A DNA stretch of 64,000 nt from NCBI GenBank assembly GCA_020059465.1, contig JAGVBZ010000030.1:62001-126000 (forward strand), read 5' to 3'. The stretch comes from Brevinematales bacterium (GTDB lineage: Bacteria; Spirochaetota; Brevinematia; Brevinematales; GWF1-51-8). The notes beneath the pieces are model-generated. The model did no database searches. It was given only the letters and a program-made list of their open reading frames with translations, and was not told the origin of the DNA. Made by a program: the position numbers and the translations under genes. Below, piece by piece: positions 43,035-55,850 of this stretch (its first letter is position 1; each line of letters begins with the position of its first letter).

Positions 43035-43061
43035 AAACCATTAGGGTGATAGGAGTTGGTA

Positions 43062-44870
43062 ATGATAAAAAAGTATATTGGGCGGTTTATTGCCGTTTCG
43101 GTTTCTTTAGGGATGATTGCAGCCGCGTCGTGCTCACAGCTTGCTTCCGGCGGGAGTTTTTCGGAGATTCCGAAAACATCTAAGAACACCAATCGAGTAA
43201 AAACATCCACCTATGTGTTTGACCTGAACGCAGTCCCGACTATTACTATCGAAATCAGTTCGAACGAATGGAATACTCTACTGACAAATTACGATAAAAA
43301 TGATAAAAATGAGACCATGGTTAAAGCCGATTTTAAATTTGAGAAAAACGGAACGATCTACACTTTCTCAAACATCGGTTTTCGTATCCGGGGAAATACC
43401 AGCCGGGAACGCCCCGAAGGAACAATCGGGCAGTTTCATAATCCCGGCGCTCCGGACTGGCATCACGCCCATTTTAAGGTCGATCTCGACCAGTTCGCAT
43501 CCGTCGGCACCAATTTCTTTAAACTCGACGGTTTTAACCTGAAATGGTGCAAGGACGACCCGGATTATGTCCGTGAAATCTACTGCTATAACCTTTTCCA
43601 GAAATTCGGGGTATGGACCGCGCCTCTTGCTTCTTATTGCAAGGTCTATATTAAAATAAAAGAAGACCCTGCCGCGGCGTATTTCGGAATCTACGAGATG
43701 ATCGAACCTATAGACCAGCGGTATATAAAAGCCCGTTTCCCGGATGAATTGGAGAACGGTTTCCTGTGGAAATGCCTTTGGGGCGCAAACCTCGGAACTC
43801 CGGGGGCAAGCGATATCGGAATAGAGGTTATCGATCCTAATAACGATGCCGCCAGTTATCGCCCGTGCTACGATCTGAAGACTCAGAAAACGAACTTCGC
43901 CGCCGCAAAGATTCAACTGGAAGCTTTCATCAATAACCTGAACACGAAAACAGGCGCCGATTTTGTCACATGGATACAGTCGGCGATGGACGTCGACCTG
44001 CTCCTCCGTACCTATGCGGTCAATAACCTTGTGGGAATGTGGGACGACTACTGGAAGAACAACGGGAATAATTATTACCTCTATTTCGACGACCTCGGAA
44101 AGTGCTATTTTATTCCTTATGATTACGACAATACATTAGGCACAGGAAGGTCTGAGTTTGGAAATCCCGGCACCGACCATATCGTGAACTGGGGCCCGGG
44201 TTCCGGCGCGGTATTATTGAATAAAGTCATGGGTGTTACCGAGTTTAGAAATACTTATATCAAGTATGTCTCCGAGCTGATCAATAAGACCAACGACCTG
44301 TTCGATTTTGTGAAAAGCACCAACCGGATAAAGACGTGGCAGGCAATGATATCCCCTTATGTCGCCAACGATACCGGAGAGGATATGGCTGTTTCCGATA
44401 CACTGGTCGCCGTATGGACGCACTTCAACTATTATAAACTGTTGTCCGGCGAGGTGGATGTTAATTTCTTCAAGACCCGTATCGTATACGCCCAGCTCCA
44501 GCTCGGCCTGCCGACCAACGCGAATTCATGGAACAGCGGCGGCGGAGGCGGAACAACAAACACAAACGCCTACATCAGTCCTGAAATCCTGTCCGGTTCC
44601 GTAATATTCCGTTATAAATATACCGGAGCTTCGATGGCCTCGACGAACATTTATCTCCGAGGCAACCCCGTAGGCAGTTGGAATCCCGGCTTACAGATGA
44701 CATACGTTGGCGGCGGAATGTTTGAAATAACGCGTCTTCGGCCTTCACAAACCGATTATATGGATCAATATAAATTTTTCTATAATAACGGCTCCGATGT
44801 TTGGATTACCGATCCGGTAAACCCATATTATACTGCTGATATAAATCAAAATTCGATAGTAACCAATTAA
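43062..44870 (+). CDS. CotH-kinase-family lipoprotein with C-terminal CBM48-like module (1 of 4)
   Basis: A 602-residue lipoprotein (lipobox AASC, Cys24). The CotH domain (about 45-475) has VFDLNAVPTITIEISSNEWNTLL, FRIRGNTSRERPEG, FNLKWCKDDPDYVREIYCYNLFQKFGVWTAP, GMWDDYWKNNGNNYYLYFDD and the metal-loop FIPYDYDNTLG. CotH proteins are atypical secreted kinases; B. subtilis CotH phosphorylates spore-coat proteins. A Gly/Thr/Asn linker (SGGGGGTTNTN) leads to a final ~90-residue module with IYLRGNPVGSWNPG, an AMPK/CBM48-type glycan-binding fold. It is first in a tandem array and followed by a terminator. Confidence 0.9.
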   Translation: MIKKYIGRFIAVSVSLGMIAAASCSQLASGGSFSEIPKTSKNTNRVKTSTYVFDLNAVPTITIEISSNEWNTLLTNYDKNDKNETMVKADFKFEKNGTIYTFSNIGFRIRGNTSRERPEGTIGQFHNPGAPDWHHAHFKVDLDQFASVGTNFFKLDGFNLKWCKDDPDYVREIYCYNLFQKFGVWTAPLASYCKVYIKIKEDPAAAYFGIYEMIEPIDQRYIKARFPDELENGFLWKCLWGANLGTPGASDIGIEVIDPNNDAASYRPCYDLKTQKTNFAAAKIQLEAFINNLNTKTGADFVTWIQSAMDVDLLLRTYAVNNLVGMWDDYWKNNGNNYYLYFDDLGKCYFIPYDYDNTLGTGRSEFGNPGTDHIVNWGPGSGAVLLNKVMGVTEFRNTYIKYVSELINKTNDLFDFVKSTNRIKTWQAMISPYVANDTGEDMAVSDTLVAVWTHFNYYKLLSGEVDVNFFKTRIVYAQLQLGLPTNANSWNSGGGGGTTNTNAYISPEILSGSVIFRYKYTGASMASTNIYLRGNPVGSWNPGLQMTYVGGGMFEITRLRPSQTDYMDQYKFFYNNGSDVWITDPVNPYYTADINQNSIVTN

Positions 44871-44893
44871 TTCTAGTACATGATTATATTTCG

Positions 44894-44919
44894 GGGGGAG
44901 TTAACGCTCCCCCTTTTTT
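44894..44919 (+). terminator. Terminator or attenuator between CotH genes 1 and 2
   Basis: A 7-bp stem GGGGGAG/CTCCCCC with a 6-base loop and six T. Only 25 bases separate it from the next ATG, leaving no room for a separate promoter after it; downstream genes would depend on read-through. Confidence 0.88.
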
Positions 44920-44944
44920 CTCTAAATAAATAGAGGATAAACTA

Positions 44945-47053
44945 ATGAAAAACATTATGGGTTGTCTGCTGTTATTCACCGTTATCTCGTGCGGGAGCGC
45001 GCTTCGTCCTACTGCCCCGGTATCCGTGAAAACAGGCGCCGATTACGTGTTCGACCTCAACTCCCTCCCGAAGGTGACGATCGCGGTTACCGTCGACGAA
45101 TGGAATAAGCTCCTCAAGTACTACGATATGAACCCGGAAAACGAAACAATGGTGCGCGCCGATTTTATATTCGAAAAGAACGGCGTGGTCGAAAAATTGT
45201 GCGGCATAGGCCTGCGTATCCGCGGGAATATGAGCCGGGAACGCCCCGAGGGCGATAGCGGCAAGTTTCACGATCCCGTCTCCCCTCAATGGAACCACGC
45301 GCATTTTAAGCTGGATTTCAGCGAGTTTGCGTCCGCGAAAACCAACTTCCACGACCTCGGCGGCCTCAACCTGAAATGGTTCAAGGACGACGGAAATTAT
45401 GTCCGGGAGATTTACTGCTATAACCTCTTCATGAAATTCGGGGTATGGACCGCGCCGCGTGTCGCGTACTGCCGTCTCTTTATAAAAGTCGAAGGCGACC
45501 CGAAACCCGCGTATTTCGGCATTTACACGATGATCGAACCGTTCGATAAATACTACCTCAAGGCGCGTTTCACCGATCCGTCGATGGGCGAGAACGGATA
45601 TCTATGGAAGTGCCTATGGGGCGCGACCCTTGCAAAAGCGGGCAAAAACGTCATGGGGATAGAATCCATCAATCTCACCAATAAGTCGCTCAGCATCAAA
45701 CCGCCCTACGACCTGAAAACAAAAAAGGCCGATATCGAGAACGCGAAGGCGCGGCTGTTCGACTTCATAGTCAACCTGAACACTAAGACCGGGGACGATT
45801 TCAAAAACTGGATCGTCGACGCGATGGACGTCGATCAACTGCTCCGGCTCTATGCCGTCAACGTTCTGGTCGGGATGTGGGACGATTACTGGAAGAATCA
45901 GGGAAATAACTATTACCTCTATTTCGACGAGAAAGGCAGGGCGTATTTTATCCCGTACGACTACGACAATACGCTGGGGATCGGCATCCAGAATTTCGGG
46001 AATATGGGCACCGAGCATGTCATCAAATGGGGGCCGAGTCCGAAACCCGTGCTGATGAATAAAATCCTCGCCGTGCCGGAATTCAAAGCCAAGTACAAAC
46101 AATACCTTGCCGAGTTGATCAGCCCCACCAACGACCTGTTCGACTTCACCTGCAGTACGAACAGGATTATAAAATGGCAGACTATGATCTCGCCGTATAT
46201 TTCCAACGATACCGGACAGGGTATGGTGATCGTCGACCGTCCGACCAGTTCATGGAGCGCGCATAATTATTTTAAACTCCTCTTCGGCGACGCAACCGGC
46301 AAATTTCCGTTCGCAAACTACTTTAAGACCCGTATCGTGTTCGCCCAGCTTCAATTGGGAATCCCCACCAACGGGAACGTATGGATGGAGAATAAAAAGA
46401 TTAACAGCGCCGACGTTACCCCGCCGAAATTTCTTGATGCCGGCCTGATGGCAGTAAAGAGCGACAGCCCATTTATTTCGGATATACCTATAAAAACCGA
46501 TGAGGACGGGGTGATTTATTATGTCGTACTGCCTGCTAAATCCCCGGCCCCCTCGATGGAACAGATAAAAGCGGGAAAGGACGGTAACGGCGCCCCCGCG
46601 CTGATGAAGAAATCGCTGATGGTCGACGCGGGTAAACAGAATTTGGCTATGATACACGGTACCGCCGCGAAGACCGATTATTCGTTATATATTATTGCGA
46701 TAGACTGGTCGCAGAATGTGCAGAAAACCCCGACGGTAATCCGTTTCACGACGCCCGCCCTGGCTTTTATCAGTCCGCAGGATAACGGCGATACCCTCAC
46801 GTTCCGTTTTCAGTCCTCCAAAACGAACACCGTATACATGAAGGGCGAGTTTAATAAGTGGAGCCTGAAAACTCCGCTGACGAAAGTATCCGCCGACATA
46901 TGGGAAGTAACGCTGCCGAAATCCGGACTGAAGAAAGACAGTTACTATATGTATAACGTATTCCCGTTCGGCCGCGACGACTGGTATATTGACAGTATGA
47001 ACCCGTCGAACTATGTACACATGAACGGGGTAATCTCCAGAATATGGTGGTAG
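44945..47053 (+). CDS. CotH-kinase-family lipoprotein with C-terminal CBM48-like module (2 of 4)
   Basis: A 702-residue lipoprotein (MKNIMGCLLLFTVISC, Cys16). The CotH domain covers about 33-485: RIRGNMSRERPEG near 91-103, LNLKWFKDDGNYVREIYCYN at 141-160, GMWDDYWKN at 310-318 and the metal loop IPYDYDNTLG at 336-345. Then come a fibronectin-like region (about 505-605, with DGVIYYVVLPAKSPAPSMEQIKAG) and a CBM48-like module (about 612-702, with TVYMKGEFNKWS). Closely related to gene 3 over its full length. Possible surface kinase that binds glycan. Confidence 0.9.
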   Translation: MKNIMGCLLLFTVISCGSALRPTAPVSVKTGADYVFDLNSLPKVTIAVTVDEWNKLLKYYDMNPENETMVRADFIFEKNGVVEKLCGIGLRIRGNMSRERPEGDSGKFHDPVSPQWNHAHFKLDFSEFASAKTNFHDLGGLNLKWFKDDGNYVREIYCYNLFMKFGVWTAPRVAYCRLFIKVEGDPKPAYFGIYTMIEPFDKYYLKARFTDPSMGENGYLWKCLWGATLAKAGKNVMGIESINLTNKSLSIKPPYDLKTKKADIENAKARLFDFIVNLNTKTGDDFKNWIVDAMDVDQLLRLYAVNVLVGMWDDYWKNQGNNYYLYFDEKGRAYFIPYDYDNTLGIGIQNFGNMGTEHVIKWGPSPKPVLMNKILAVPEFKAKYKQYLAELISPTNDLFDFTCSTNRIIKWQTMISPYISNDTGQGMVIVDRPTSSWSAHNYFKLLFGDATGKFPFANYFKTRIVFAQLQLGIPTNGNVWMENKKINSADVTPPKFLDAGLMAVKSDSPFISDIPIKTDEDGVIYYVVLPAKSPAPSMEQIKAGKDGNGAPALMKKSLMVDAGKQNLAMIHGTAAKTDYSLYIIAIDWSQNVQKTPTVIRFTTPALAFISPQDNGDTLTFRFQSSKTNTVYMKGEFNKWSLKTPLTKVSADIWEVTLPKSGLKKDSYYMYNVFPFGRDDWYIDSMNPSNYVHMNGVISRIWW

Positions 47054-47124
47054 AAAGACGATTGTCTGTCTGAAAAACCTGGGAATATAGTTCCCCCTTT
47101 TAATATAACACTAAGGATACTCCG

Positions 47125-49233
47125 ATGAAGATTTTTACGGGTTTTCTCCTATTATTCACCGTCGTTTCCTGCGGCAACGAGGTGCGTCCGGAATCTAAGA
47201 CCGCCGTAAAAACAGGCGCCGATTACGTGTTCGACCTCAACTCCCTCCCGAAAATCACTATCGAGGTATCGACGGAAGAGTGGAATAAGCTCCTGTCGTA
47301 CTTCGACCTGAACTGGAAGTACGAGACTATGGTGCGCGCCGACTTCACTTTCGAGAAGAACGGAGTGATCGAAAAACTGTTCGATATCGGCCTGCGTATC
47401 CGGGGCAACCTCAGCCGGAAACGCCCCGAGGGTTACTACGGCCAGCCTCATAATCCGGTTTCCCCTAAATGGAACCACGCCCATTTCAAGCTGGATTTCA
47501 GCGAGTTCGCGTCCGTAAAAACCAATTTTCACGACCTCGCTGGCCTCAACCTGAAATGGTTCAAGGACGACGGCAATTATGTCCGTGAAATCTACTGCTA
47601 CAACCTTTTCCAAAAATTCGGAGTATGGACTGCGCCGCTGGTCAGCTACTGCCGTCTCTATATAAAAATCAAGGAAGACCCGAAAGAAGCGTATTTCGGT
47701 GTGTACGCGATGATCGAACCGTACGATAAAAATTATCTCAAGGCGCGGTTTTACGATCCGTCTATGGGAGCAGGCGGATACCTGTGGAAGTGCCTATGGG
47801 GCGCGGTTCTCGCGGAGCCCGGCGCAAAGGATATCGGGATCGAATCGATCAATCTCTCCAACAGAACGCTGAGCTACAATCCCGCGTACGATCTGAAAAC
47901 GAAAAAAGCAGAATTGGAGACCGCGAAGGCGAATCTTTTAGTATTCATCTCGAACCTGAATTCCAGAACAGGGGATGACTTCACGAAATGGGCTCTCGAA
48001 GCGATCGATGTCGACCAACTGCTCCGTTTCTACGCGGTCAATATCTTAGTCGGCATGTGGGACGACTACTGGAAGGATCACGGCAACAACTACTATCTTT
48101 ATTTCGACGAGAAGGGCAAGGCTTACTTTATCCCGTACGACTACGACAATACGCTCGGCGTCAGTATGCCGAATTTCGGGAATATGGGCACGGAACATAT
48201 CGTCAACTGGGGGCCCTCCCCTACTCCCGTCCTGCTGAATAAAATCCTCGCCGTACCGGAGTTCAGGAGTAAATACATCCAGTATGTAACCGAACTGATC
48301 AGCCCCGCGAACGATTTGTTTGATTTCACGGCGAGCACGAACAGGATCATCAAGTGGCAGACCATGATCTCGCCGTATGTCTCCAACGATACCGGACAGG
48401 ATATGGTGATAGTCGACCAGCCGACCGGTTCATGGAGTACGTATAACTATTATAAACTTCTCTCCGGGGACGCGAGCGGCGAATTCCCGTTCGCCAACTA
48501 CTTTAAGACACGTATCGTGTTTGCCCAGATACAGCTGGGGCTTCCCACCAATCAGAACTCGTGGATGGGCAGTCAGGCAGGCAAGAAAATAGATACCCTT
48601 CCCCCTGCGTTTATCAGCACAGGCAACGCTGCGCTGAAAATCTTCAGCCCCTATTACGCATCGATGTCCGTCAAGATGAACGAGAGCGGGGTGGTTTACT
48701 ATGTCATTCTGCCGGAGGAATCCCCTGCGCCGTCGCCTGCCCAGATTATTGCGGGACATGACGCATCGGACAAACCCGCGAAACTTAAAGGCGCGTTTAC
48801 TATTAACGCATATATTCCCTTTTATCAGATTATCATGGGTACGCAGCCCGGCAGCGTCTATCGCGCGTACATGATCGCGCTGGATTGGGAGAAGAATATG
48901 CAGCCCGCCCCGGCCGTACAGAATTTCACCACACCCGAACTGAAATACATCAGCCCCCAGGATACGGGCGGCACTCTCACGTTCAGGTTCCAGTCCTCGA
49001 ATACGAATATTGTTTACCTGAGAGGCGAGTTCAATAAATGGGAAATCAATTACCCGATGAAAAAAGTGTCTGCAGATATGTGGGAAATTTCGCTTGAAAA
49101 ATCGATTCTCAAGAAAAACACCCGCTACAGTTTCAGTGTCCACCCGATGGGGCCGTCCGACTGGCACTTCGACCCGATGAACCCGTCGAATATTATCCGG
49201 TACGGCTATCTCAATTCCCTGATGTGGTGGTAA
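47125..49233 (+). CDS. CotH-kinase-family lipoprotein with C-terminal CBM48-like module (3 of 4)
   Basis: A 702-residue close paralogue of gene 2 with identical length and domain order: lipobox VVSC, CotH domain with FIPYDYDNTLG and GMWDDYWKDHGNNYYLY, fibronectin-like region (SGVVYYVILPEESPAPSPAQ), CBM48-like end (IVYLRGEFNKWEINYPMKKV). Some DNA blocks, such as the one encoding TGADYVFDLNSLPK, are nearly identical to gene 2, pointing to recent duplication or gene conversion. The C-terminal regions differ most. A weak GGGAA/TTCCC hairpin lies in the 71-base gap before it. Confidence 0.9.
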   Translation: MKIFTGFLLLFTVVSCGNEVRPESKTAVKTGADYVFDLNSLPKITIEVSTEEWNKLLSYFDLNWKYETMVRADFTFEKNGVIEKLFDIGLRIRGNLSRKRPEGYYGQPHNPVSPKWNHAHFKLDFSEFASVKTNFHDLAGLNLKWFKDDGNYVREIYCYNLFQKFGVWTAPLVSYCRLYIKIKEDPKEAYFGVYAMIEPYDKNYLKARFYDPSMGAGGYLWKCLWGAVLAEPGAKDIGIESINLSNRTLSYNPAYDLKTKKAELETAKANLLVFISNLNSRTGDDFTKWALEAIDVDQLLRFYAVNILVGMWDDYWKDHGNNYYLYFDEKGKAYFIPYDYDNTLGVSMPNFGNMGTEHIVNWGPSPTPVLLNKILAVPEFRSKYIQYVTELISPANDLFDFTASTNRIIKWQTMISPYVSNDTGQDMVIVDQPTGSWSTYNYYKLLSGDASGEFPFANYFKTRIVFAQIQLGLPTNQNSWMGSQAGKKIDTLPPAFISTGNAALKIFSPYYASMSVKMNESGVVYYVILPEESPAPSPAQIIAGHDASDKPAKLKGAFTINAYIPFYQIIMGTQPGSVYRAYMIALDWEKNMQPAPAVQNFTTPELKYISPQDTGGTLTFRFQSSNTNIVYLRGEFNKWEINYPMKKVSADMWEISLEKSILKKNTRYSFSVHPMGPSDWHFDPMNPSNIIRYGYLNSLMWW

Positions 49234-49257
49234 AAAATATAAGAAAAGGATAAGTCA

Positions 49258-50685
49258 ATGAAAGCAATCGTTTTCCTGATCATGTCCGTATTCCTGGTCT
49301 CGTGCGGGGCAATTGTCCGTCCCGCCGGCAAGACGATTATGAAACTCGGTGCGGAATATGTGTTCGACCTGAAATCTTTGCCGGAAATCGAAATCCAGGT
49401 CGACATCGGCGAGTGGAATAAACTGCTCGAGTATTTTTCGGCGAACAAGGAAAACGAGGAATATATCAAGGCCGACTTTATTTTTATTAAGGACGGTAAG
49501 AAAGAAGTCCTGATGAACGTCGGTTTCAGGCTGCGCGGTAACGCGTTCAGCCGGATTTCCCCGCAGGCCGGATCGGTTTATAAGCCCGGCGATACTAAAT
49601 GGCAGCAGAGCCATTTTCGTGTCGACTTCAACGAATATGTCAAGGGACAGTCGTTCCATACGCTGAAAGCTCTCAATCTTAAGGCGTTTAACGGCGATCC
49701 GGCATTTGTGCGCGAAATCTACTGCTTCGACCTTTTTCAGCGCTTCGGCGTACTGATCGCGCCCCGTTCGAGTTATGTCCGCCTGACGATCTATATCAAG
49801 GGTGACCCGAGTCCCGCATACTTCGGGATTTACCGTATGAACGAAAGTATCGATACGACTATGATGCGGGATCGTTTTCCGGGCGAGCCGGAGGGCTATC
49901 TATGGAAATGCTTATATCCCGCAAACCTAATCCATGCGGCGATGGAGGGAAGCATAGGTATGGAAAAAATCAGCGCGGAGAGCAAGCACCTCAGCGAAAC
50001 CTATCCCTATGACCTGAAAACAAAAAAGAACGAGTTTGAGAAAGCGAAGCAGCAGCTCCTCGATTTCGCCTATAACCTGAATTATCTCGAGGGAAATAAG
50101 CTGAAGGAATGGCTTGAGCAGAACTTCGATGTTCAGCTTTTCCTGAAGGCGTATGCCGTAAACGTCATGGTCGGAATGTGGGACGATTATTGGGTGAATA
50201 ACAATAACTATTATTTATACCAGCACTCGTCAGGGAAATGGTATTTTATCCCGTACGATTATGACAATACTCTCGGAACTTTCATCGGGAGTATCAACGC
50301 CACCCGCGACGTTTTCGATTGGGGCGGCGGCGGACTGGGTTGGGGCGGAGGTTCACCGGAACGCCCGCTTATCGATAAAATATTCTCGTTTCCCGAATAC
50401 TGCAGGGATTACTCGAATTATATCGCAATGCTGATCGACCCCTCCAAGGAACTATTCGACGCTAAGGCGAGTATCCTGCGTATCAAGGAATGGCATGAAA
50501 TGATATCGCCGTACATCGAAAACGACACGGTATCGGTTCAGACGATTAAAGACCGTCCTGCCGATTGGGGAAATTGCCATTATTACCGACTCCTCACCGG
50601 AGAGAACGATCTGCCCGCAAAGGAAGTGAATTATTTCCTCCAACGGATACTGTATGCCAAAGACCAGCTCAATCTGATTCCATAG
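49258..50685 (+). CDS. CotH-kinase-family lipoprotein, short form without CBM (4 of 4)
   Basis: A 475-residue lipoprotein (lipobox LVSC, Cys16) made of the CotH domain alone: GFRLRGNAFSRISPQ, LNLKAFNGDPAFVREIYCFDLFQRFG, GMWDDYWVNNNNYYLY and FIPYDYDNTLG are all kept, so it should share the core chemistry. It lacks the fibronectin-like and CBM48-like regions and has a Gly/Trp-rich insert (DWGGGGLGWGGGSPERP) not seen in the others. It begins 24 bases after gene 3 and ends at a strong terminator, closing the array. Confidence 0.9.
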   Translation: MKAIVFLIMSVFLVSCGAIVRPAGKTIMKLGAEYVFDLKSLPEIEIQVDIGEWNKLLEYFSANKENEEYIKADFIFIKDGKKEVLMNVGFRLRGNAFSRISPQAGSVYKPGDTKWQQSHFRVDFNEYVKGQSFHTLKALNLKAFNGDPAFVREIYCFDLFQRFGVLIAPRSSYVRLTIYIKGDPSPAYFGIYRMNESIDTTMMRDRFPGEPEGYLWKCLYPANLIHAAMEGSIGMEKISAESKHLSETYPYDLKTKKNEFEKAKQQLLDFAYNLNYLEGNKLKEWLEQNFDVQLFLKAYAVNVMVGMWDDYWVNNNNYYLYQHSSGKWYFIPYDYDNTLGTFIGSINATRDVFDWGGGGLGWGGGSPERPLIDKIFSFPEYCRDYSNYIAMLIDPSKELFDAKASILRIKEWHEMISPYIENDTVSVQTIKDRPADWGNCHYYRLLTGENDLPAKEVNYFLQRILYAKDQLNLIP

Positions 50686-50697
50686 ACGAAAAACCGC

Positions 50698-50731
50698 GCC
50701 CCTTCGGAGAACTGCTCCGGAGGGGCATTTT
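50698..50731 (+). terminator. Terminator after the CotH array
   Basis: A 12-bp stem GCCCCTTCGGAG/CTCCGGAGGGGC with one G-T pair, a 5-base loop, then ATTTTTC. Confidence 0.93.
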
Positions 50732-50754: not shown

Positions 50755-50782
50755 TTGATAAATAATAATTCTACATTAAAAT
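50755..50782 (+). promoter_or_regulatory. Promoter of the lipid-kinase/HypF-like operon
   Basis: TTGATA (50755-50760), 16 bases, TAAAAT (50777-50782). Confidence 0.7.
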
Positions 50783-50821: not shown

Positions 50822-51745
50822 GTGTCTATACCTGAGGGTAAATGGGCTTTTATCGATAACCCTGTCGCCGGAAGCGGTTTCGGCGGACGGTATCTTCCCC
50901 ATGTCCGCGAAGAAATCAAGCGTTATCATCCCGGAGCGGATATTTTTACCACGGAGTACCATGGGCATGCCATCGAACTGACCGCCGAACTCGTACGGAA
51001 GAAATACACCCATATTATCGCGGTCGGGGGCGACGGAACTATCAATGAAGTGGTGCAGAGTCTCGCCGGGCATCCGGATGTGATATTCGGCGCGGTTTCA
51101 GCGGGTTCCGGCAACGATTTTATTCATTCGCTGGGATTCCCGGAGCGTTTCACCGAAGAGGATTGGCAGACCCTTTTTCAGGCGAATACGACGTGTCTCG
51201 ACCTCTGCAGATGCAACAACCGTTTCTTTATCAATACGATCGGGATAGGTTTCGACGCGCAAGTGGCGGCCGATTTTAATAAAATGAAGATCAGAAACGG
51301 GAAAATCCGTTACTGGATCGCGCTGCTCAAGAACCTGCTTTTTTTCAAACCCGTACGGCTTAAAATAACGTCCGAACAATATTCCACCGAAGATAATATG
51401 TTTATGATCAGCATCGGAAACGGACGTTCCAGCGGCGGGGGTTTCACGTTACTGCAGGACGCGATGGTGAATGACGGGCTTGTAGACGCGAGCGTTTTCC
51501 TCGGCAACCGGCAGGGACTATTGAAACGTGTTTCTCTGCTGACAAAAGTCCTGAAAGGGACACATTCGCTCGACCCGACTGTCACCCAGTTCCGCTCGAC
51601 AAGGATAGTAGTGGAAACTGATCGGGAAGTACCGCTTCATATAGACGGGGAGCTTTTTCAGGAGACACGGCTGGATATCACGATTTTCCCGGCGTCGGTA
51701 AATGTTATATATCATCCCGGCCGGCCGAACTATTTAAAGGTGTAA
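50822..51745 (+). CDS. Diacylglycerol kinase catalytic-domain protein (DagK/YegS-like lipid kinase)
   Basis: A 307-residue soluble lipid kinase. FIDNPVAGSGFGGRYLP opens the fold; IAVGGDGTINEVVQSL (from about residue 67) is the GGDGT nucleotide site; FGAVSAGSGNDFIHSLG and the C-terminal GGGFTLLQDAMVNDGLVD and VPLHIDGELF complete the pattern. Such enzymes phosphorylate diacylglycerol or related lipids at the membrane. The start is GTG at 50822 behind GGGAGG. It is cotranscribed with the HypF-like gene ten bases downstream. Confidence 0.93.
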   Translation: MSIPEGKWAFIDNPVAGSGFGGRYLPHVREEIKRYHPGADIFTTEYHGHAIELTAELVRKKYTHIIAVGGDGTINEVVQSLAGHPDVIFGAVSAGSGNDFIHSLGFPERFTEEDWQTLFQANTTCLDLCRCNNRFFINTIGIGFDAQVAADFNKMKIRNGKIRYWIALLKNLLFFKPVRLKITSEQYSTEDNMFMISIGNGRSSGGGFTLLQDAMVNDGLVDASVFLGNRQGLLKRVSLLTKVLKGTHSLDPTVTQFRSTRIVVETDREVPLHIDGELFQETRLDITIFPASVNVIYHPGRPNYLKV

Positions 51746-51755
51746 GGTGTAAAAA

Positions 51756-53333
51756 ATGGAAAAGAAATACCTGCGGTTTCAGGGCGGAAAAACATTTTTG
51801 ATCTCTAAGGATGTTTCTAAAATAAAAAAAGACAGAACCCCGTACTTTCTGATCTTCGATCAGGATTTCCTCCTGTCGCATTTTCAGGTGGATACGAAAA
51901 TGAGCCAACAGGGATGCCGTTCGTTCTATGTGAAACCGTCGAAACTGGGGATGCGGCATATCACTCTGAAAGACGGGAAATTTCATGTAACACTCTGCTC
52001 GGAGGAAGCGTTCGATAAGTGTGAAAAAAACTGTATTATGGAAAGCCTGCGTGACGACCATAGCGAAGGGAAGTACGTTATCCTCAGCGAGGAGCACGCC
52101 GATCATCGGGATTCCATCGATTCGGATATTTCGATGCCCCCCGTATTCCAGTCATTCGTCCTCGACGAAATACTCCCGATCTCCTACTCCCCGTTTGCGT
52201 TCCATACCATACAGTTCCCGGAGAATAAAACTTCCCGCAGTATTCTGTCGTTCGGCGACGAAAACAGTTTCACCATGTCCTACCTCGAGGGGAACGAGAT
52301 ACATGTATCGCCGCTCCTCGAACGGCTGGAAACGTTCTACGAGATGGAGGAAATGGACCGCCTGATCAACATGATTGTCGGGCATCTCAATATCAAGGAA
52401 CTGACCCTGATCCGCGATTACAATAACTTTTCGCTCGTAGCGGATTACCTGAAGCGTTTTACGTCGGTGCACAAGGTCAATCACGTATTCGCGCATATGG
52501 CGAACGTGATGTACGATAACGGATTCGCGCAGAAAAAAGGAATCGGGGTAATCTACGATTCGAGCAGTTTCGGCCCGGAGGGCAATATACTCGGCGGGGA
52601 GCTTATCTACGGCAATATCGGAAATTTCGAGATAGTCGGGCGATGGAAAGATGTTCCGCTGCCGGGCGGGGATGTCGCAAATATTGAGCCGTGGCGAATC
52701 TCCATCGCGCTGATCAAGGAGGCTATCGGCGGCGACCTTTCCAATATGAGTCTCCCGCTGATCGGGAAGATTCGCGCATCGGAAAACACCGCTTACATAT
52801 TCGACGCGATCAATAAGGGCAATGTCACCTATACGTTATCGTCCAGCATGCATCATATTATCTCCGCGATCGGCGAGCTGTTATTCTACCAGGAGAAAAC
52901 ATTCGACCGCGACTTTTTCGAGAGCTTTATCAACGAACTGGTGCCGCTCGATTCCGTGCTGGATTTTTACACCCTCCCCATCGCGGAAGAAGACGGGTTG
53001 TTTATCATCAATACATATACTCTGATACAGAAGCTGGTCAGCGACCTCTTCGCGCTGGAAAATCCGGAGGGATTAGTCGGAAAACTGGTCGATACGATCG
53101 CACGGGCGACCGCAGACGCTGTTGAACGTATCGCCGAACGCTATCATGAGAAGAACGTGTTTCTCGGCGGCGAGTTTTTTACCAATCCGGCCTGCCTGAC
53201 CATTATCCATGACGAACTGAAATCGAGGGGGTTTCAGGTGTATATCCCGAAAACAATCCCGGCCGACAACAGTTCCGTTTCGGTAGGACAGTTAATCTAC
53301 GATTTCTTTCAGCAGAACATAAATATGCCGTAA
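51756..53333 (+). CDS. Orphan HypF/Kae1-type carbamoyltransferase-like protein
   Basis: A 525-residue protein whose C-terminal ~370 residues match the Kae1-like part of HypF: NHVFAHMANVM (His243, His247; HypF has QHHHAH), GIGVIYDSSSFGPEGNILGGEL (Asp268), VPLPGGDVANIEPWR, then NVFLGGEFFTNPACL and PADNSSVSVGQL (Asp504). The four metal ligands of the family are thus kept. The acylphosphatase, zinc-finger and YrdC parts of HypF are absent; the first ~150 residues are unrelated to anything I know. No hydrogenase or hyp genes are near. Probable role: ATP-dependent carbamoyl or adenylyl transfer to an unknown acceptor. Confidence 0.75.
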   Translation: MEKKYLRFQGGKTFLISKDVSKIKKDRTPYFLIFDQDFLLSHFQVDTKMSQQGCRSFYVKPSKLGMRHITLKDGKFHVTLCSEEAFDKCEKNCIMESLRDDHSEGKYVILSEEHADHRDSIDSDISMPPVFQSFVLDEILPISYSPFAFHTIQFPENKTSRSILSFGDENSFTMSYLEGNEIHVSPLLERLETFYEMEEMDRLINMIVGHLNIKELTLIRDYNNFSLVADYLKRFTSVHKVNHVFAHMANVMYDNGFAQKKGIGVIYDSSSFGPEGNILGGELIYGNIGNFEIVGRWKDVPLPGGDVANIEPWRISIALIKEAIGGDLSNMSLPLIGKIRASENTAYIFDAINKGNVTYTLSSSMHHIISAIGELLFYQEKTFDRDFFESFINELVPLDSVLDFYTLPIAEEDGLFIINTYTLIQKLVSDLFALENPEGLVGKLVDTIARATADAVERIAERYHEKNVFLGGEFFTNPACLTIIHDELKSRGFQVYIPKTIPADNSSVSVGQLIYDFFQQNINMP

Positions 53334-55310: not shown

Positions 55311-55850
55311 ATGAAGATTGCGTTTTTATCGTTATCCATGCTGTTTCTTTTCATTTGCGCCGGTTTCAGCGCAGGCAAGGCTGAGATCCAGTTGCATCTG
55401 GAGGAAAAAACGTTCCTGAATCCCGGGGGCCCCGAAGTTATTGCCACTATGGCCGGAGATATTTCATTTGAGGAAAAGATGTTATTCTACTCGATGTACA
55501 AAAAAGAGGACGCTGCCATAGGATTTGTCCTGAATTTTTTGATCCCGGGTCTCGGCATCGGGAATTATGTGATCGGTGATACCTCCGGCGGAACAATTAC
55601 TCTGGTAGGTTCAATCCTCTCTTGGGCCGTCTATGCAGTCGGTTTAAATATGATATATTCGACCGGTTATACCGGTTTATTAATCGGGTATGCAGGAATA
55701 GGCGGTGTATGCTTCTTCAGTATCCGCGGCCTCGTCAGCCCGTTTACCTATGTCGATCATTATAACAAACAGCTTAAGAAAGCTCTGATGATGGGTAACC
55801 TGTCGCTCGACGATGGTTTCCACATGGATTTGTTTTCTATCAGTTTCTAA
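55311..55850 (+). CDS. P13-like spirochaete membrane protein
   Basis: A 179-residue exported protein. After a signal peptide (MKIAFLSLSMLFLFICAGFSA) the segment EEKMLFYSMYKKEDAAIGFVLNFLIPGLGIGNYVIGDTSGGTITLVG closely follows the core of Borrelia P13 (EKLL-YE--K-DP-VPFLLN-FLGFGIGSF-QGD--GG). P13 is a channel-forming outer-membrane protein of Lyme spirochaetes. Two or three further hydrophobic helices follow (about 85-140). GGAGGA precedes the ATG. It is flanked by 32-bp repeats and ends at a terminator. Confidence 0.75.
   Translation: MKIAFLSLSMLFLFICAGFSAGKAEIQLHLEEKTFLNPGGPEVIATMAGDISFEEKMLFYSMYKKEDAAIGFVLNFLIPGLGIGNYVIGDTSGGTITLVGSILSWAVYAVGLNMIYSTGYTGLLIGYAGIGGVCFFSIRGLVSPFTYVDHYNKQLKKALMMGNLSLDDGFHMDLFSISF

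Follow-up and report, generated by a model that had tools for sequence, protein, structure and literature searches.

HypF is the carbamoyltransferase of [NiFe]-hydrogenase maturation (TIGR00143; PDB entries 3vth, 4g9i, and 3tsp). Besides its Kae1-like domain, it has an acylphosphatase domain, zinc fingers, and a YrdC domain, and it acts on the acceptor HypE. The carbamoyltransferases TobZ, GdmN, and NodU have the same sort of Kae1-like domain, and TsaD/Kae1 shares the ASKHA fold and the HxxxH metal site. In GdmN, iron is bound via H133, H137, D156, and D333 (PMC9633730). The YrdC fold is also that of Sua5 and TsaC. Here we describe a short protein that resembles one half of HypF. It is encoded in a 64,000-nucleotide stretch of contig JAGVBZ010000030.1 from a Brevinematales bacterium, and we will refer to the whole stretch as the window. 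(The coordinates given below for the HypF-like gene and its parts, the lipid kinase, the hairpin, and the promoter-like site are for the plus strand.)

A short protein related to HypF

The protein encoded by the open reading frame at 51756-53333 has 525 amino acids and is a homolog of HypF's Kae1-like half, with which it can be aligned along the full length of that domain. In Pfam, HypF_C matches residues 159-254 (52230-52517; 25 bits, cut-off 23) and HypF_C_2, the second subdomain of the Kae1-like domain, matches residues 264-512 (52545-53291; 94.8 bits, cut-off 27, E = 9e-27). No other Pfam match to the protein is significant, and the acylphosphatase, zinc finger, and YrdC families do not match it at all. 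Positions 377-738 of TIGR00143 align with residues 147-514, and the score of 128.4 bits is far under the curated cut-off for full-length HypF (466.1 bits). The protein starts at about the YrdC region of HypF. Its sequence matches in the PDB are to HypF chains only. An AlphaFold2 model of the full protein, built from six sequences (pLDDT 70.4, pTM 0.65), has HypF as its first Foldseek match (E = 1e-25), followed by Kae1/TsaD (E about 1e-6), so the model retains the ASKHA fold. Pfam, TIGR00143, and Foldseek thus bear out the first-pass annotation of a Kae1-like protein of the HypF type that lacks HypF's other recognizable parts.

The protein is not simply a known TobZ/NodU member. TobZ/NodU domains from Pfam do not match it at E up to 1, these families are not among the listed Foldseek matches, and it has no proven YrdC domain. 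Membership in TsaD can also be set aside: the TsaD/Kae1 models from Pfam and NCBIfam give no match at E up to 1, and the structural match to TsaD/Kae1 is far weaker than the match to HypF. We also rejected a defense or phage family, as there was no match in PADLOC and one insignificant match in PHROG.

The first-pass annotation also viewed the N-terminal domain (residues 1-150; 51756-52205) as novel and the YrdC part as missing, together with the acylphosphatase and the zinc fingers. The acylphosphatase and the zinc fingers are indeed absent, and a profile of the N-terminal domain alone has no match. But when these residues were modeled alone (pLDDT 69.8), all of the listed Foldseek matches with a probability above 0.1 were to YrdC-fold chains (from HypF, Sua5, and TsaC2). 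None of these matches is significant, and the resemblance to Sua5/TsaC is weak (TM about 0.44). The domain also has no match to PF01300. We compared the N-terminal profile to the YrdC part of HypF and to shuffled columns. Just 1 of 100 shuffles reached the local score, but the 11 matching columns are out of register, and 58 of 100 shuffles equaled the global score, so we discounted this as proof from sequence. Given the ranking of folds, we think it somewhat probable that residues 1-150 are an eroded YrdC domain, although the sequence profiles do not confirm this.

Distribution and conserved residues

To find relatives, we searched the proteins of 149 related genomes, and we used a profile to search 393 Spirochaetota genomes sampled across the phylum. 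The short form (512-525 amino acids) is present in eight genomes, all from one Brevinematales-type order: four members of the window's genus (G000-G003) as well as G005, G007, G008, and G010. (The copy in G001 is divided between two contigs.) There was no clear case elsewhere among the 393 genomes, where the remaining matches were to longer HypF frames or to fragments. Some of these are cut off by the end of a contig, and a fragment such as that from G177 (450 amino acids) may be a further short form. We also scanned 84,980 species genomes with a motif pattern, which tolerates hardly any deviation, so that more divergent members would escape it. The scan found five loci, in Spirochaetes GWF1_51_8, GWF1_49_6, and three Brevinematales MAGs, and all five belong to the short family. 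In a phylogenetic tree, the short family forms a single, fully supported clade, which a long branch separates from the HypF proteins of spirochaetes; because the tree is midpoint-rooted, it does not place the ancestry of the family. We propose that the short protein descended from HypF. The proteins from G007 and G010 are only about 27% identical to the window's protein. Between members of the window's genus, dN/dS for this gene is 0.05-0.11, which indicates purifying selection.

We compared the seven full sequences of the short family to 26 HypF rows from the phylum, which represent 23 genomes (three were fetched twice). To select the HypF rows we filtered for motifs (HHxAH-like, GGE/GHE, and PxR), and the constancy of these motifs is therefore in part a product of the selection. 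Our argument rests on positions 269, 271, 366, 367, 370, 473, 477, and 505, which lie outside the filter. Among the 53 positions that are invariant in HypF (at least 92% constant across the rows), 14 are kept in all seven short sequences, including H243, H247, D268, G472, P502, and G511; two have a new invariant residue (Y226S and R367H); and the other 37 vary. Many of the variable positions surround the nucleotide and metal site (G269, G271, G305, G366, D370, G473, and N477). We take D370, G473, and N477 to lie at the nucleotide site, as in Kae1/TsaD. The short family also has invariant residues of its own: N250, S362, S363, M365, H367, and S506. S506 replaces a glycine, and residues 362-365 read SSSM.

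The metal site of HypF (His, His, Asp, and Asp) is mostly kept. His243 and His247 (in an HxxxH motif at 52482-52496) and Asp268 (52557-52559), noted as ligand positions at first pass, align with invariant residues of HypF and are also invariant in the short family. The fourth ligand had been placed at Asp504, which is off by one: in four alignments that agree, P-x-N-D-G-G of HypF aligns with P-A-D-N-S-S, so that the ligand position is 505 (53268-53270). Residue 505 is asparagine in the window's genus and aspartate in the other families of the order. The PLPGGD and GGE elements are both present in the window's protein, but PLPGGD is not conserved across the family (the G007 and G010 proteins carry PVPGHAS/PVPGNAS).

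A lipid kinase next door and the likely function

Just upstream of the HypF-like gene, and separated from it by 10 nucleotides, is a lipid kinase gene (50822-51745). The kinase belongs to the YegS/Rv2252/BmrU family (175.7 bits for TIGR00147, cut-off 118.65), and its DAGK_cat and YegS_C domains are above Pfam's cut-offs. The suspected association with a lipid kinase is conserved: the kinase lies directly upstream of the HypF-like gene in six of the eight carriers (G000-G003, G007, and G010), across two families that are about 27% identical. In a small survey of 14 related genomes, which are not phylogenetically independent, the kinase was found in 6 of the 7 carriers that were surveyed and in none of the 5 members of the order that lack the HypF-like gene. 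As to the exceptions, no kinase was detected in G005, and in G008 the two genes are on different contigs.

The kinase gene is preceded by a terminator-like hairpin that would end the preceding CotH-domain gene (50698-50726; a 12-pair stem and a run of T) and by a promoter-like site (50755-50782; 10 of 12 matches). Both are consensus matches only, and the promoter scan is weak, with 6 sites found and 3.3 expected. We infer that the kinase and the HypF-like gene are cotranscribed. As to other neighbors in the window, four CotH-kinase-type genes lie in a row upstream of the kinase (43056-50685), and the two that we scanned both match CotH. Positions 55311-55850 encode a small membrane protein that matches the Borrelia P13 family (32.4 bits, cut-off 25). 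In G007 and G010, a second lipid kinase gene immediately follows the HypF-like gene (L087:8122-9054 and L088:8043-8999), which places it between two kinases. G004, which shares its genus with G007 and G010, has no copy of the HypF-like gene, and no lipid kinase was detected there either; it looks as though the entire cassette had gone at once.

The partners of HypF appear to be gone as well. Across 13 genomes (G000-G012), which include all of the carriers, HypD was not found and HypE had no hit above the cut-off; both are present in G013-G017, from the same class. Full-length HypF was not found in genomes with the short form. In the window's genome, the search for YrdC proteins turned up only Sua5, which is a separate gene. 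Because the acylphosphatase and zinc fingers are absent and the YrdC domain is gone or worn down, the protein probably does not make its own carbamoyl-adenylate. It is also unlikely to transfer carbamoyl groups, because no acceptor was found, there is no recognizable adenylating domain, and the pocket for nucleotide and acceptor is poorly conserved. The best reading is that the protein no longer carbamoylates HypE. The parts and residues for the original chemistry of HypF have been lost, the metal site is mostly kept, and the gene is paired with a kinase; therefore this shortened descendant of HypF probably has a new job.

What might that job be? We tentatively propose, at slightly less than even chances, that the protein holds a metal, does not carbamoylate, and serves as a partner or regulator of the lipid kinase whose gene precedes its own. 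On this proposal the Kae1-like domain would still bind a metal with its three retained ligands and an Asp or Asn in fourth place. In its favor, most HypF-invariant positions vary within the family while H243, H247, and D268 do not, the kinase gene recurs directly upstream, HypD and HypE were not found, and three carriers have no [NiFe] large subunit. The missing kinase in G005 and the unlinked kinase in G008 count against it, and so do the low number of full sequences (seven), the small survey of related genomes, and the residues that are invariant only in the short family, as these could mean a new active site. Because of these residues, the main rival is a re-tooled enzyme, in which the retained metal site and the new invariant residues make up a changed active site for another transfer or a hydrolysis. 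Its target might be what the kinase uses or what it makes. Several of the new invariant residues lie near HypF motifs (R367H, S506, and SSSM), and the low dN/dS is consistent with an enzyme. But G269, G271, G305, D370, G473, and N477 differ between the families, which is not expected if they share one chemistry, and we consider this rival less likely than a kinase partner by a good deal.

Other explanations seem improbable. The first-pass annotation suggested that the protein transfers a carbamoyl or acyl group that comes from elsewhere; candidate donors would be free carbamoyl phosphate or, made by Sua5, threonylcarbamoyl-AMP. The Kae1-like fold, the retained ligands, and the presence of Sua5 fit with a transferase that is fed in trans, but the positions expected to hold the adenylate are not conserved and HypE was not found, which makes the idea unlikely. 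A further possibility is that the protein still works alongside the HypC-HydE fusion described below to mature [NiFe] hydrogenase, which is no more probable than that and perhaps slightly less so. In its favor, the window's genus and G005 have [NiFe] large subunits, but HypD, HypE, and full-length HypF were not found there. However, G007, G008, and G010 retain the HypF-like gene without any [NiFe] large subunit, so maturation is not our leading idea; nor is the gene near hydrogenase genes. Finally, the loss of most HypF domains and of many conserved residues might suggest a decaying pseudogene, but this is contradicted by intact frames in seven genomes, by purifying selection, and by the well-supported clade, and we give it almost no weight. 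If the proposed partnership with the kinase is correct, then a carbamoyltransferase scaffold has been reused after the loss of its pathway, and the lipid kinase gains a likely partner protein.

[NiFe] hydrogenases and a HypC-HydE fusion

The HypF-like gene had been said to lack any hydrogenase context. This is true locally, but another contig of the same genome contains a [NiFe] hydrogenase operon, which is group 3b-like (L035:8047-13837; L089 and L090 hold such operons too). It encodes, in order, the large subunit (with RICGIC and DPCISC, and so all four cysteines), the small subunit, a maturation protease, and a protein that joins a HypC domain to a HydE-like radical-SAM enzyme. The fusion protein is just under both of the NCBIfam cut-offs (245 vs. 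254.6 for HydE and 41.4 vs. 48 for HypC), and it exceeds Pfam's cut-offs for HypC and radical SAM. The window's genome also has separate HydE and HydG genes that score above their cut-offs. All of the genomes with these operons contain HydE and HydG, and HypD, HypE, and full-length HypF were not found in them.

Six of the 393 sampled genomes encode the HypC-HydE fusion: G000, G002, and G003 from the window's genus, G005 (L148:2192-3499), G042 (L169:8707-9999), and G019 (L170:8880-10193). Neither HypD nor any HypF longer than the short form was found in these six. The fusion has no hydrogenase gene beside it in G019 or G042. In the literature that we searched, which covered few subscription journals or preprints, we found no report of such a fusion and no paper on Brevinematales together with hydrogenase.

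This gene content suggests that the iron ligands may be made by a HydG/HydE-type route, without HypD, HypE, or HypF. The genomic context poses a sharper question than the HypF-like protein does, namely how [NiFe] hydrogenases obtain their cyanide and CO ligands without these three proteins, and we view possible maturation without HypD, HypE, and HypF as the more striking lead. A more speculative scenario, which we think is rather unlikely as a whole, joins the two: the lineage dropped HypD, HypE, and HypF, HydG and the HypC-HydE fusion supply the iron ligands of the [NiFe] enzyme, and the freed descendant of HypF became a metal-dependent co-worker of the lipid kinase.

G005 and G003 also encode a second large subunit, which is NuoD/group 4-like and contains both RICGIC and DPCISC (L091:3271-6660 and L092:6662-8811). 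It adjoins HypA in both genomes and also HypB in G005.
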